DNA from: Streptomyces humicola
GTDB taxonomy: Bacteria > Actinomycetota > Actinomycetes > Streptomycetales > Streptomycetaceae
DNA length: 64,000 nucleotides
Reading direction: 5' to 3'
Assembly: GCF_024436035.1 (NCBI RefSeq)
Contig: NZ_JANFNG010000003.1
Location: 310,001 to 374,000 of the forward strand
The position numbers and the translations under genes are program-made. Of this stretch, positions 14,319 through 18,605 are shown one piece after another (the first letter of the stretch is position 1; every line of letters starts with the position of its first letter). The notes below the pieces were generated by a model. It ran no database searches. It saw nothing but the letters and a program-made list of their open reading frames with translations, and was not told the origin of the DNA.

Positions 14319-14362
14319 CGTGGGCACTCACCGTGAGTGGTCGTTGATGATTTAGCGACCTG

Positions 14363-14400
14363 GCGGCCGCGTTTATCAAATCTTGATAAAACGCGGCCGC
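14363..14400 (+). terminator. Strong intrinsic-type terminator after the thioredoxin-like gene
   Basis: The arms GCGGCCGCGTTTATCAA (14363-14379) and TTGATAAAACGCGGCCGC (14383-14400) pair over 17 bp with one bulged A and a 3-nt loop. It lies 45 nt after the stop codon. Confidence 0.85.
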
Positions 14401-14525
14401 CGTTACCTGTAGTAAGCCGCGGCGATCTTGCTGTCCGGTCACGTCCGGGTGTGTCTGAATTTGGCCACCCCCTTTTATGTACGCTCTGTGTCCGTCCTCC
14501 ACTTGTCGGACGCACGTCGGTTATC

Positions 14526-14678: not shown

Positions 14679-14721
14679 TTGGGCAGGGGGGTACTTGTCC
14701 GACCGGACAGGTCCTGCCCAA
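14679..14721 (+). other. Long hairpin in DUF6230 leader
   Basis: The outer arms TTGGGCAGG (14679-14687) and CCTGCCCAA (14713-14721) are perfect complements. Inside, TGTCCG (14696-14701) faces CGGACA (14704-14709), with further pairing 14693-14695 to 14710-14712. A GGGGT bulge lies on the 5' side. It ends 194 nt before the DUF6230 ATG. Confidence 0.6.
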
Positions 14722-14915
14722 CAGCAGGTTGCGCGAGAGCGTGGCCAGTGGTTGTCGCTCGGGGGTGATCGCCGGTGCTTCGGGCACGGGCCGTCCTGCA
14801 GGTACGACGGTCCCCGACGACGGCGCTCTCCTTCCCGAGGACGTAGCACTTCTCCCATCCCAGGCCCGGATCGCGCATCCAGGCCGGAGATGTACGTCCG
14901 AGAAGGAGGAAAGTC

Positions 14916-15539
14916 ATGGAGTCCAACACGGCTCGTGGCGGGACCAGATGGAAGCGGTTCGCCGTCGTCATGGTGCCGAGCGTTGCTGCCACGGCCGCGA
15001 TAGGTGTCGCCCTTGCACAGGGCGCTCTCGCGGCATCGTTCAGCCTCTCCGGCCAGCAGTTCAAGGTCAGCACCGACAAGCTCGTCGGTCAGGGCTTCCT
15101 GCAGTACGGGGCCGTTGACGCGCTGCACAACGGCCAGCAGGTTCCGGTCGCGGTCTCGGCGTTCAAGAGCGCCCAGATCACCAACCTGTGCCAGTCGGTC
15201 GTCGTTCCCGTCCCGATGTTCGGCGACTTCTCGATGAAGCTGACCGCCGGCGGCAGCGGTACTCCGGTCCAGGCGCAGAACCTCTACATCGACCTGGACC
15301 AGCTGAACGCCGACGCCCAGTTCAACAACATCAATATCGGTGTTGCCGCAGGCGACAGCACCAAGGGCCCCGGCATGAAGGGCGGCAACGAGAAGGCGGA
15401 CCCGGGCTCCTTCGCCCAGGAAGCCGACTCGGCGACGCTGACCGGTGTCAAGCAGACCGCCTGGGCGACCAGCGCGGGAACGTTCAAGCTCAGCGGCCTG
15501 CAGATGAAGGTCAGCAAGGGCGACAACGAGTGCTTCTGA
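14916..15539 (+). CDS. DUF6230 family secreted/envelope protein
   Basis: A 207-residue protein with a basic N-terminus (RWKRF), a hydrophobic segment at about 16-38 and a likely cleavage after ALA-39 (GALA-ASF). The mature part is Gly/Ser/Asn-rich beta-type sequence (FSLSGQQFKVSTDKL, LYIDLDQLNADAQF) with two cysteines near residues 92 and 206 that could form a disulfide. Homologues are labelled DUF6230, sometimes mis-called cholesterol esterase; no catalytic motif is visible. A strong RBS (AAGGAGGAAA) precedes the ATG. It heads a three-gene operon with DUF6114 and a Ser-rich protein. Confidence 0.85.
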   Translation: MESNTARGGTRWKRFAVVMVPSVAATAAIGVALAQGALAASFSLSGQQFKVSTDKLVGQGFLQYGAVDALHNGQQVPVAVSAFKSAQITNLCQSVVVPVPMFGDFSMKLTAGGSGTPVQAQNLYIDLDQLNADAQFNNINIGVAAGDSTKGPGMKGGNEKADPGSFAQEADSATLTGVKQTAWATSAGTFKLSGLQMKVSKGDNECF

Positions 15540-15651
15540 GCCGCTGACGCGCTCGTACGCACATCGACGGCCGGGTGAGGGACGGGACCTCGTCCCTCGC
15601 TCGTGCCGTCGCAACTGAACCACCATTGCCGGTCGCAGGGAGCTGTTTACG

Positions 15652-16203
15652 ATGAGCGCCGAGTCGCAGATGAGCGCCAAGCCGCACGGACTGCTTGACC
15701 GAATCGGCAGTTGGCGCCGGTCCTTCCGTTCGTGGCGTGATCAGCGCCCGTTCTGGGCGGGGCTGCTGACGCTGCTGGGCGGACTGCCGATCATGTATTT
15801 GCCCTACGCCAACCTGACCCTCGGCCAGTTGACGATCCGCATGGCCACCACGGCCGGTTCCGGATCGTTGATCATCGGCGTACTGCTGGTGGTGCTCGGC
15901 ATCACCATGTGGTTCCAGTCGGCGGCCCGATTCTTCGCCGGCGTCGCCGCGATCCTGCTGGCGCTGGTCTCGCTGGTCGTCTCCAACTTCGGAGGCTTCC
16001 TGGTCGGCTTCCTGCTGGCGCTGATAGGCGGCGGCCTGTCGATCGCGTGGGCGCCCGGCACCACGGCGCCGGACGCCGCGGGCGAGGGCGCCACGCCCCC
16101 GGGACCCGCGGGCGACGGCGGCGGTGGCCACGAGAGGACCCCGGAGCCCGCCTGGTCGGCGTTCGGGGACGACAAGTCGCTGAACGGGAGGCACCGTGCG
16201 TGA
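15652..16203 (+). CDS. DUF6114 family integral membrane protein
   Basis: A 183-residue protein with a basic cytoplasmic start (RSWRDQRPFWAG) and four hydrophobic segments between residues 35 and 140, then a hydrophilic Pro/Gly-rich tail (DAAGEGATPPGPAG). This matches DUF6114 membrane proteins, whose function is unknown. The spacing to the DUF6230 gene is 112 nt, and its stop overlaps the next gene by 8 nt, so membrane and secreted components are produced together. Confidence 0.85.
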   Translation: MSAESQMSAKPHGLLDRIGSWRRSFRSWRDQRPFWAGLLTLLGGLPIMYLPYANLTLGQLTIRMATTAGSGSLIIGVLLVVLGITMWFQSAARFFAGVAAILLALVSLVVSNFGGFLVGFLLALIGGGLSIAWAPGTTAPDAAGEGATPPGPAGDGGGGHERTPEPAWSAFGDDKSLNGRHRA

Positions 16204-17416
16204 CGATGCTCTGCCGGAGGACCAGGTCGCCGAGGGCGACGGTTCCGGTACGAGAACGGGGCCGCGCCACGCGGCTCCCCGCAAGTCGCTGCTGACCCGT
16301 GCCAACGCCTCGGCGGGCAAGGCGATAGCGATGGCCGCCATGCCGACCGCCGTGATCATGGGCATGGGACTCACGCCGCGCCTCGCCTCGGCCGACGAAC
16401 TGCCCAAGAACCCCTTCTCGGGCGACAGTTGCGTCAGCCAGTCCGACTCGCCCTCGCCGTCGAGCTCGGCGTCGGCTTCCCCCTCCGCGACGCCCTCGCC
16501 GTCCGCCTCCCCGTCGACCTCGCCGACGCCGTCAGCCTCGCCGAAGGCTTCGACACAGGCCAAGGCACCGGGCGCGTCGAAGTCGTCGGGGTCCTCGTCG
16601 GCCGGCAGCACGTCGAACACGACGAACTCCGGGGGCGGGCTGCTCGGCGGACTCAGCAACACGCTCTCCGGCCTGGGCAACACCCTCACCGGGGGCGGCG
16701 GCTCGTCGTCCGCGTCGCCCACGCCCAGCGCCTCGCCGTCGGCGAGCTCGTCGGGCAGCGGCAGCAGCGGCCTGCTGGGCTCGGTGACGAAGACGGTGAG
16801 CAAGACCACGGGCTCGGTCGCCTCGACCGCCAAGGGCGCCACGGACTCCGTGACCAAGACGGTCTCCAACGCGGCCTCCGCGCTCCCCACGGCCTCGTCG
16901 TCGTCCTCCGGGAACGGCACGCCGTACCCGTGCCCGACCTACAACGCCAAGGCGCTCGCCGACGCGGGCCTTGAGCAGACGCCGGAGCTGCTGCCCAACC
17001 AGCCCTGGGTGCTCAAGACCTCCCTGCTGACCCTGACCGGCCTGGACTACCACGGCGTCGTGAAGGTGAAGACGGAGAACGGCAGCGTCAAGGACGTGCT
17101 GAAGTTCACGGCCACCGCCGTGGACATCAAGGACCTCCACCAGATTCAGGACGGCTCCAACGGCACGTACAACCATGTCAAGGCCGCCCCGGGCAGTACG
17201 TCGACGATCCGCAACGGCACGGTGACGATGTACACCCAGGAGCTGAAGGGCGACCTCTTCGGGCTCATCCCGGTCACCTTCAGCCCCGACAGCCCGCCGC
17301 CGGTCAACGTTCCGTTCGCGTTCTTCACCAACGTCACGGTCACGCAGGCCGGGCAGTTCGGCGGCACGCTCACCGTGCCGGGCATGGACGCCTACGGAAA
17401 CACCTCGCCGGACTAG
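16196..17416 (+). CDS. Ser/Pro-rich secreted protein of the DUF6230-DUF6114 operon
   Basis: A 406-residue protein starting at GTG 16196 after GGAGGCACC. The N-terminal 40 residues are hydrophilic and cytoplasmic-like, followed by a hydrophobic stretch (43-60) and a probable signal cleavage after LASA (residue 66). Residues 80-240 form a Ser/Pro/Ala/Thr linker (SPSPSS, GLLGGLSNTL, TKTVSK repeats), bounded by C79 and C246. The C-terminal 160 residues are a compact beta-rich domain (PWVLKTSLLTLTGLDYHG...VTMYTQELKGDLFGLIPVTFSPDSPPPVNVPF). No catalytic motif is recognised. The linker suggests a domain held out through the cell wall. Confidence 0.8.
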   Translation: MRDDALPEDQVAEGDGSGTRTGPRHAAPRKSLLTRANASAGKAIAMAAMPTAVIMGMGLTPRLASADELPKNPFSGDSCVSQSDSPSPSSSASASPSATPSPSASPSTSPTPSASPKASTQAKAPGASKSSGSSSAGSTSNTTNSGGGLLGGLSNTLSGLGNTLTGGGGSSSASPTPSASPSASSSGSGSSGLLGSVTKTVSKTTGSVASTAKGATDSVTKTVSNAASALPTASSSSSGNGTPYPCPTYNAKALADAGLEQTPELLPNQPWVLKTSLLTLTGLDYHGVVKVKTENGSVKDVLKFTATAVDIKDLHQIQDGSNGTYNHVKAAPGSTSTIRNGTVTMYTQELKGDLFGLIPVTFSPDSPPPVNVPFAFFTNVTVTQAGQFGGTLTVPGMDAYGNTSPD

Positions 17417-17430
17417 TCCGGGAGCCGCAG

Positions 17431-17478
17431 AACGGCGGTGGGCGCCTCACCGGTCACCGGGTGGCGCCCACCGCCGTT
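17431..17478 (+). terminator. Terminator of the DUF6230 operon
   Basis: A perfect 16-bp stem: AACGGCGGTGGGCGCC (17431-17446) and GGCGCCCACCGCCGTT (17463-17478), loop 16 nt. It starts 15 nt after the stop and also faces the end of galE, so it may act in both directions. Confidence 0.85.
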
Positions 17479-17522
17479 CGCTTCTGCGCCCGCTCACAGT
17501 TTCGCTCGTCTGCGTGCGCGCC

Positions 17523-18494
17523 CTACGCGTCGTGCCGGGCCCGCCATCCCGCCCATGCCGAGGAGATCATCTCGTCCACGCCGTACTGCGCCGACCAGCC
17601 CAGCTCGGAGCGGATGCGCTCCGCCGAGGCCACCACGCGCGCCGGGTCGCCGGGCCGTCGCCCCTCGACCTTCGGCTCCACGGCCTCGTGGCCGGTGATC
17701 GTGCGGATCCGGCCGACCATCTCGGTCACGGAGACGCCCTCGCCGCGTCCGATGTTGACCGTCAGATCGCCCGTCGCCCCCGCCGCCAGCCGCCGCGCGG
17801 CGGCGAGGTGTGCCGAGGCGATGTCCTGGACATGGATGTAGTCGCGGATGCAGGTGCCGTCGGGTGTCGGGTAGTCGTCCCCGAAGATCAGCGGAGCCAG
17901 GCCCTGGTCGAGCTTCTCGAAGACCATCGGCACCAGGTTGAAGATGCCGACGTCCGCCAGCTCAGGCTGCGCCGCCCCCGCGACGTTGAAGTACCGCAGG
18001 CACGTGGTGGCGAGGCCGTGCGCCTTCCCTGTCGCCCGAACGAGCCACTCGCCGGCCAGCTTGGTCTCTCCGTACGGGTTGATCGGGGCGCAGGGCGTGT
18101 CCTCTGTCACAAGGTCGACGTCGGGCATGCCGTAGACCGCCGCGGAGGAGGAGAAGACGAAGTGCTGCAGGCCGGCGTCGATGACCGCACTGAGCAGCAC
18201 CTCCAGGCCGTGCACGTTCTCCCGGTAGTACAGCAGCGGCTCGGCGACCGACTGCGGGACCTGCTTCTTCGCGGCGAGGTGCACCACACCTGTCACACTG
18301 TGCTCGGCGATGGTGCGGTCCAGCAGCTCGCGGTCGAGGGTGGACCCCTTCACCAGCGGAATGGACTCTGGCAGCCGCTCCCGGATACCGGTCGAAAGGT
18401 CGTCGAGCACGACGACGCGCTCGCCTGCGTCCGCCATGGCATGCGCCACGTGCGACCCGATGTAGCCTGCACCACCTGTGATCAACCACGTCAT
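17523..18494 (-). CDS. galE: UDP-glucose 4-epimerase
   Basis: A 323-residue extended short-chain dehydrogenase. NAD is bound by GGAGYIG (residues 7-13); catalysis uses FSSSAAVYG (114-122) and Y141-X3-K145 (YGETK). It interconverts UDP-glucose and UDP-galactose for galactose use and cell-wall glycans. The ATG at 18494 places GGAGYIG at the standard N-terminal position; an upstream start would add 15 unconserved residues. It is divergent from the glycosyltransferase genes starting at 18606, suggesting supply of UDP-galactose to that pathway. Confidence 0.93.
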   Translation of the reverse strand: MTWLITGGAGYIGSHVAHAMADAGERVVVLDDLSTGIRERLPESIPLVKGSTLDRELLDRTIAEHSVTGVVHLAAKKQVPQSVAEPLLYYRENVHGLEVLLSAVIDAGLQHFVFSSSAAVYGMPDVDLVTEDTPCAPINPYGETKLAGEWLVRATGKAHGLATTCLRYFNVAGAAQPELADVGIFNLVPMVFEKLDQGLAPLIFGDDYPTPDGTCIRDYIHVQDIASAHLAAARRLAAGATGDLTVNIGRGEGVSVTEMVGRIRTITGHEAVEPKVEGRRPGDPARVVASAERIRSELGWSAQYGVDEMISSAWAGWRARHDA

Positions 18495-18605
18495 GCCCGA
18501 CAGCCTAAAGGGCGTCGCTCTGCCGTAGGATTTCAGCACTTAAAAATTCATCTTCCGTCTGCAACCCGTCCCACACTCGCCGCGTCTTACAGGAATCGTC
18601 ACTCC

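Follow-up and report, generated by a model that had tools for sequence, protein, structure and literature searches.

The 64,000-nucleotide stretch of Streptomyces humicola DNA analysed here (contig NZ_JANFNG010000003.1, positions 310,001 to 374,000; source genome 7.07 Mb), referred to below as the window, contains a forward-strand operon of three genes that encode a DUF6230 protein, a DUF6114 protein and a Ser-rich protein (protein 3). The unit is preserved as a block across genomes, the second and third genes are fused into one reading frame in other families, and the first gene is preceded by a strongly conserved leader containing an RNA of the che1 family. The kinship and fusion of the operon parts and the RNA leader are the new elements of this analysis. 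The operon is tentatively read as an RNA-led surface complex of two copies of one beta domain, likely binding and perhaps hydrolysing lipid esters, a reading that we favour while placing it somewhat short of an even chance. The DUF6230 protein would be exported through its conserved N-terminal segment, DUF6114 would be a four-helix membrane protein, as modelled in a homologue, and protein 3, found in other lineages as the C-terminal part of DUF6114, would hold a second, divergent copy of the beta domain on a long Ser-rich stalk. Outside the cell the domains would most likely bind hydrophobic esters or lipids, perhaps hydrolyse them, and hand them towards the membrane, and the long leader, consisting of che1 and a hairpin able to cover the ribosome site, would tune translation of the first gene.

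The gene unit, its linkage and its fusion

The DUF6230 gene (14916–15539) encodes 207 amino acids and matched PF19741 with 206 bits against a cut-off of 27.5, and the DUF6114 gene (15652–16203) encodes 183 amino acids and matched PF19609 with 121.4 bits against a cut-off of 27.9. The gene of protein 3 (16196–17416) encodes 406 amino acids, comprising an N-terminal hydrophobic segment, a Ser-rich stalk (16433–16930) and a C-terminal domain (C-domain; 16988–17386). Genes 1 and 2 are separated by 112 bp, and the last 8 nt of gene 2 are shared with gene 3. The open reading frames and Pfam scores thus confirm the unit and the tight spacing described in an earlier sequence-only reading of this DNA. 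The linker of about 160 residues noted there in protein 3 measured 166 residues between Cys79 and Cys246 (Ser 54, Gly 22, Thr 21, Ala 20, Pro 16). When protein 3 was scanned whole against Pfam and NCBIfam no family exceeded any cut-off, and in NCBIfam none of the three operon proteins had a match over its cut-off. Among the matches listed for the DUF6230 protein, the best named came from a Streptomycetaceae metagenome-assembled genome (88%), followed by Streptantibioticus (80–85%) and Streptomyces species; a plasmid search returned five distant records, all below 60% identity.

The linkage of the genes was examined in a phylum sample of 149 genomes and a class sample of 197 genomes, 16 of them Streptomycetaceae. 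DUF6230 was found in 10 genomes of the phylum sample and DUF6114 in 12, with all 10 carrying both; in the two genomes with DUF6114 alone, our own iterated DUF6230 profile located an adjoining partner (loci L053 and L055). In the class sample 38 genomes had DUF6230; 37 of these, and no others, also had DUF6114 over its cut-off, and three additional genomes had only a sub-cut-off DUF6114 match. Every over-cut-off DUF6114 match of this sample lay within 291 bp of a DUF6230 match (59/59), and 63 of the 65 DUF6230 matches had DUF6114 within 2 kb, the two remaining being in a genome with no DUF6114 match (G222) and in a degenerate fragment (G280:C6). The C-domain was detected at E 0.01 in 33 of the 197 genomes, among them all 16 Streptomycetaceae, with weak matches in two genomes lacking the other two genes (G199 and G212). 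The complete unit was present in 16/16 Streptomycetaceae of the class sample, and the first two genes reach another class.

The association of protein 3 with DUF6114 is closer still. Of the 36 loci with a C-domain, 17 have it joined to DUF6114 in a single unbroken frame, one of them being a paralogue in the S. humicola genome itself. Among 81 loci examined for frame coupling, with the start codon closest to the upstream stop taken as the start of gene 3, this codon lay −10 to +5 nt from that stop in all 79 loci containing both domains; in the other two (L169 and L241, with contig ends close by) a domain match was missing. A possible explanation of the unit is that the three genes are merely co-transcribed and that their products never meet. 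DUF6230–DUF6114 pairs with no recognised C-domain partner (L126, L114, L043, L044) are what this would lead one to expect, but the fusion of genes 2 and 3, the frame coupling and the close adjacency across classes argue against it, and we regard it as very unlikely. The proposal that the composition reflects an assembly rather than separate genes came through the co-occurrence check, since DUF6230 and DUF6114 hardly ever occur apart, and the fusion and frame coupling also support it; the three products may form a physical complex exposed at the cell surface.

Several additional copies were seen. The paralogous cluster of the same genome (G000:C33:252255-255850; L041, 5085–8853) holds two tandem DUF6230 genes and the fused DUF6114–C-domain frame, downstream of what appear by eye to be an alpha-oxoamine synthase and an MMPL-type transporter. 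The fragment in G280:C6 (L133, 5385–5899) is an apparent degenerate remnant of a DUF6230–DUF6114 pair. Second DUF6230 copies in G300:C7, G211:C8 and G270:C1 were each reported with one internal TGA, which may be their own stop, because the matches reach profile position 144 and close copies end at 140. Close to a second Streptomyces DUF6230–DUF6114 locus (L043, 3245–4306; L046, 8045–9094) there is a secreted protein with a mature start that, judged by eye, resembles that of the AA10 oxidative chitin or cellulose enzymes.

The C-domain of protein 3 appears to be a remote relative of DUF6230, a kinship that is supported but not proven. The alignments used were A1, with 52 of 67 DUF6230-type domains, and A2, with 35 of 36 C-domains; fusions to wall enzymes (described below), some divergent tandem copies, the L131 protein and the L041 C-domain were left out. 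Profile-profile comparison of the two families with hhalign gave an E-value of 9.8e-4 over residues 42–197, nearly the whole domain. Single-pass profiles were then run against 6190 reading frames. Outside its own members, the DUF6230 profile first reached two DUF6230 frames, L131 (E 5.8e-41) and the L133 fragment (E 1.3e-13). After these came a wall-enzyme fusion in L053 (E 0.002), the C-domain of the fused L121 protein (E 0.0065) and a further pair of wall-enzyme fusions (E 0.027 and 0.037); an unrelated frame came next (E 2.4) and then two protein 3 sequences of the window type (E 4.1 and 4.2). The top three matches of the C-domain profile were DUF6230 proteins (E 2.7e-5, 0.099 and 0.15), ahead of an unrelated window frame at E 1.5, and the DUF6230 protein of L131 (4886–5611) was recognised by both profiles. 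In these searches the order of the hits is telling and the individual scores are weak. The order of the long strands is also similar, as judged by eye from the listed elements, between the model of the window DUF6230 protein and the C-domain within the model of the fused L109 protein (block means mostly 93–98). An iterated search gave stronger numbers and was not relied on because the iteration had mixed the families, and the fold search of the C-domain was not decisive because it had been folded only inside a 457-residue homologue. PF19741 gave no match to the whole of protein 3 at E 10, so with remote kinship alone the C-domain is called a relative and not a member of DUF6230. The operon thus appears to specify two copies of a single beta domain, one free and the other tethered to the membrane.

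The segments expected to place these domains outside the cell are themselves conserved. The N-terminal segment of protein 3 is highly conserved among 79 sequences and contains an invariant Ala-x-Ala (A64, A66). Exactly two cysteines, which flank the stalk, are present in 75 of the 79 relatives and three in the other four. For DUF6114, the model of L109, a fused homologue, shows four membrane-length helices, so that the four-span topology proposed earlier is probable for the window protein. Structural look-alikes of DUF6114 among claudins, TARPs and copper-storage proteins were rejected as weak, the Z-scores of 8.2–10.8 reflecting a four-helix arrangement that is a common one.

The che1 leader and the ribosome site

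Upstream of the DUF6230 gene, positions 14680–14774 of the forward strand matched the che1 RNA (Rfam RF02935), which consists of two hairpins and a conserved single strand, with 92.1 bits against a gathering score of 54.1 (E 3.2e-14) and over all 91 model positions. This leader, the most conserved feature of the locus, had been overlooked in the sequence-only reading. When 12 upstream regions were aligned, blocks far more conserved than their surroundings were revealed, of which block c (14748–14773) is the 3' part of che1, block e (14826–14861) lies beyond the Rfam model, and block g (14886–14912) holds the ribosome site of the DUF6230 gene, GAAGGAGG. All three blocks were present, with at most five substitutions in each, at 92 of 96 loci, block c being free of substitutions in 86, block e in 71 and block g in 85 of the 92. 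Of the other four, one (L142) had its start misplaced by the script and three lacked block c or e. Eighty of the 96 are the named loci, taken as the best 80 of 570 confirmed, and the set therefore leans to close relatives.

The distribution of che1 follows that of the operon in one family. It was found over its cut-off once in each of the 16 Streptomycetaceae and in none of the 181 other genomes of the class sample, under stricter search filters, and in all 16 it lay 254–315 nt from the DUF6230 domain; one genome had a second match below the cut-off. When 11 loci were scanned with Rfam, the main locus L042 was matched and the 10 paralogous or other-family loci had no match at the gathering score. 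One source describes che1 as a common Streptomyces RNA structure of function not known (PMC11678152), and in S. lividans it is listed ahead of SLIV_11405, labelled 'Cholesterol metabolism', among cis elements with RNA-seq validation (PMC8079986). The hairpins themselves are supported by nine pairs changed on both sides among 66 leaders. The family was reportedly first presented by Weinberg et al. in 2017.

The site GAAGGAGG is strong as judged by eye, which agrees with its earlier ranking among the strongest ribosome sites of the window, with the qualification that the leader is able to pair with it. Within block e, positions 14828–14834 can pair with 14902–14908 at the ribosome site, and 14839–14845 with 14893–14899. 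None of 4000 shuffles contained both complements in this order within 30 nt, and singly they arose in 1.5% and 1.1%, the 7-mers having been chosen after being seen. The helices between blocks e and g (helices 4–6) have 98–100% of their pairs formed across 66 of the 96 leaders, the set used for all pair counts. Folding of every sixth of those 66, giving 11 leaders, yielded a probability of pairing between the ribosome site and block e of 0.72–0.86 in five, 0.43–0.46 in two and 0.00–0.20 in four, where some of the low values may be misplacements because the script relied on the final occurrence of a short pattern. Compared with shuffled sequence, the window leader has a better fold with z −2.1, and 7 of 200 shuffles were equally good. 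A hairpin of blocks e and g over the ribosome site is therefore plausible and not proven, and a translational switch may be its function. Block g contains an ATG (14890) that shares the DUF6230 reading frame in L042 and L045 but lies 26 nt off and out of frame in the window; annotated DUF6230 start sites may differ between species.

The leader could instead be a trans-acting small RNA, a set of protein-binding sites or a small-protein gene. Rfam classes che1 as 'Gene; sRNA', the invariance of blocks e and g exceeds what pairing requires, and a S. clavuligerus study reports that a protein of 145 residues could be encoded in the intergenic region that bears che1 (PMC11678152). On the other hand, che1 stands at a constant position before DUF6230 in 16/16 genomes, it is a listed cis element in S. 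lividans (PMC8079986), the complementary blocks e and g cover the ribosome site, and the ATG of block g is out of frame in the window. Such a role appears possible, if on the unlikely side, and tuning of the ribosome site remains our preferred function for the leader.

The DUF6230 domain and the case for lipid handling

The model of the window DUF6230 protein (mean predicted local distance difference test, pLDDT, 88.3) consists of an N-terminal hydrophobic helix at residues 12–34 and an all-beta domain at about 41–207, with strands up to about 20 residues long. The best-conserved positions are often Gly, Phe, Ala, Pro and Leu, with C92 and D126 kept in most sequences. C92 and a cysteine near the C-terminus were both present in 46 of 52 sequences and both absent in six, with no mixed case, the all-or-none pattern that a disulfide would predict. 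Together with the two cysteines of protein 3 this upholds the cysteine pairs noted earlier in two of the proteins. Comparison with viral models gave no convincing match (best E 8.2e-3, probability 0.11), and no sequence relative was found in the PDB (best E 1.1).

The N-terminal hydrophobic segment of DUF6230 is more conserved than the domain it precedes, with 0.11 versus 0.82 bits in 81 close sequences and 1.52 versus 1.94 bits in 52 diverse ones. Its coding region in the window (14937–15035) is nearly invariant across the 81 Streptomycetaceae sequences. Third-base entropy at four-fold sites was 1.02 bits for residues 8–40 and 1.25, 1.00 and 1.05 bits elsewhere in the gene; synonymous sites thus vary about as in the rest of the gene, so that the constraint seems to lie on the protein rather than to reflect an RNA effect within the coding region. 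Conservation above that of the domain would be unusual in a conventional signal peptide that is cleaved off, suggesting that the segment is retained or specialised instead.

A function in lipid handling is the best guess, and held as tentatively as the reading as a whole. In the two best-ordered Streptomyces-type loci (L042 and L045) DUF6230 is the third gene before pyk, and pyk2 of S. coelicolor is SCO5423, so the DUF6230 gene was equated with SCO5420; the genes around these units were named by eye. According to PMC7494193, 'cholesterol esterase (SCO5420)' rose almost 37-fold on Tween40 in S. coelicolor. The earlier label of unknown function had passed over this orthologue, with its cholesterol esterase annotation and its strong induction on Tween.

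Genomic context points the same way. At 7 of 14 fetched loci of one family (L111, L113, L116, L118 with a fragment at the contig end, L122, L123 and L125) the unit is adjoined by a cholesterol-oxidase-like GMC oxidoreductase, one of which was scanned and gave 558 bits against NF058674, under its cut-off of 850. Other loci have beta-oxidation genes, an acyl-CoA ligase, an mpaB-type oxygenase or a fatty-acid desaturase nearby. The lipid neighbourhood is suggestive only. Contexts were grouped by eye, the 20 control regions were hand-picked in eight genomes, and the query genes were chosen after the loci had been seen.

It is conceivable that DUF6230 is a true secreted, non-classical cholesterol or Tween esterase, with DUF6114 and protein 3 serving its export, anchoring or display. 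The name and Tween induction of SCO5420 (PMC7494193) speak for this. The sequence family does not readily fit it: no His column is conserved among the 52 sequences, with at most 14 sharing a His in any column and 7 having none in the domain, so that there is no family-wide Ser-His pair, the conserved catalytic His expected of a Ser-His-Asp serine hydrolase was not seen, and the 'cholesterol esterase' label of SCO5420 is weakened. Many of the best-conserved positions are the Gly, Phe, Ala, Pro and Leu noted above, though C92 and D126 are kept in most, and the second domain copy in protein 3 is even more divergent. The model is all-beta, and no chain of the alpha/beta-hydrolase fold was among its structure matches, where a missing match does not exclude a family. 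On balance we consider a true esterase quite unlikely. A novel actinomycete cholesterol esterase family is named in the title of a 2007 paper by Xiang, cited in PMC4098958, and DUF6230 may be linked to it through the annotation of SCO5420.

The unit might also be a wall-attached structural or sensing complex to which lipids are incidental. In L050 (2509–5040) the family scan revealed an N-terminal DUF6230-like domain at the head of a protein with SLT_2 transglycosylase and M23 peptidase domains, and relatives of this fusion were found in L049 and L051–L055, giving 7/7 loci, three of which were matched by the single-pass DUF6230 profile (E 0.002–0.037). The fusions lie near a DUF6230–DUF6114 pair, with a TetR gene in 7/7 loci and a fadB-like gene in 6/7, in genomes that we take to be Rubrobacter, of another class. 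The long stalk of protein 3 would be suited to wall crossing, and conservation is higher in the N-terminal segments than in the exposed domains. Against this stand the induction of SCO5420 on Tween (PMC7494193) and the fact that the wall-enzyme fusion was seen only in that one presumed Rubrobacter family, and a wall complex of this kind is regarded as unlikely.

A number of results tell against an RNA-led lipid-binding surface complex and keep our preference for it tentative. For the domain, comparison with solved structures gave no convincing match (best Foldseek E 0.028, probability 0.07; best Z 3.6), and no ligand site was found. For the kinship, the hhalign probability was only 21.8%, and the DUF6230 single-pass profile reached only 1 of 36 C-domains at E below 1, with unrelated frames following at E 1.5–2.4; the pairs with no C-domain partner bear on the physical assembly. 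For the lipid link, a lipid gene occurred in about 9 of about 20 distinct contexts compared with 4 of 20 control regions, which is not statistically secure, and the operon and pyk of L047 are separated by other genes. In PMC12835213 a DUF6230 gene of S. albulus is among the moderate constitutive promoters, which does not suggest tight control there. Other reports have a 'putative cholesterol esterase' up on xylose and xylobiose, and another, listed with no S. coelicolor homologue, in a nitrogen-response table; either of these may be a different gene. For the leader, no pair of the e–g helices was changed on both sides and one pair was broken in 6 of 66 leaders, and strong pairing of site and anti-site (at least 0.72) was obtained in only 5 of 11 folded leaders.

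A bolder and more doubtful version would combine two proposals. DUF6230, as a new all-beta domain for lipids or esters with no solved relative, would work in pairs, one copy released and the other kept on a stalk by a membrane protein of four helices, to capture hydrophobic nutrients through the thick wall; and the whole leader would act as a single large RNA switch in Streptomycetaceae, with che1 as the sensing half, the extremely conserved hairpin at the ribosome site as the output half and a possible CUCGGG/CCCGAG docking of blocks c and e.

Neighbouring genes and comparison with known systems

The gene order in L042 and L045 is meaA, tetR, a thioredoxin-TPR gene, the three operon genes, pyk and further central-carbon genes. 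Seventeen fetched loci carried the thioredoxin gene, including L121, which belongs to another family. In the window the thioredoxin-TPR gene lies 597 bp upstream of the operon and is followed by its own inverted repeat at 14362–14401. The thioredoxin-like gene recorded upstream in the sequence-only reading is thus real. Its N-terminus, read by eye, has no hydrophobic stretch and no evident signal peptide, which is not what would be expected of an exported thioredoxin-fold partner; the gene was rejected as a disulfide partner, and it says nothing about extracytoplasmic disulfides because the protein looks cytosolic and a hairpin separates it from the operon.

At the 3' end of the operon a perfect inverted repeat of 17 nt (arms 17430–17446 and 17463–17479, gap 16 nt) stands ahead of a convergent gene. 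The repeat reported as a perfect 16-bp terminator is therefore present, and a scan for T-run terminators returned none. The convergent gene (17523–18539) is UDP-sugar epimerase-like by eye and occupies the place that pyk has in L042 and L045, suggesting a rearrangement in this lineage.

The operon proteins have so far carried placeholder names or an enzyme name poorly backed by sequence. The apparent kinship of gene 3 with gene 1 and its fusion with gene 2 elsewhere turn three unknowns into one testable system, and the link to the operon gives the orphan che1 RNA family a defined target and a hypothesis. Listings and passages of open-licence literature on DUF6114, DUF6230, SCO5420–5422, che1 and cholesterol esterase gave no account of the operon, the fusion or the extended leader.

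When compared with known systems, protein 1 is a clear member of DUF6230 (PF19741) and the locus is by gene order the SCO5420 orthologue, but the family as seen here has no conserved His and no solved fold was found for it, and it has a DUF6114 partner in 63/65 cases and a second, divergent copy in gene 3. Protein 2 is a clear member of DUF6114 (PF19609), with four membrane helices by the homologue model; it is apart from the C-domain here, whereas the two are fused in other families and in the paralogue of the same genome. The leader matches che1 (RF02935) throughout, but its conservation extends about 140 nt further to the start codon and includes two more near-invariant blocks outside the Rfam match. 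It resembles site-sequestering leaders of the riboswitch type in having a conserved upstream module and a hairpin able to cover the ribosome site, and differs from them in that the covering hairpin shows no compensatory changes and no ligand is known for the leader.

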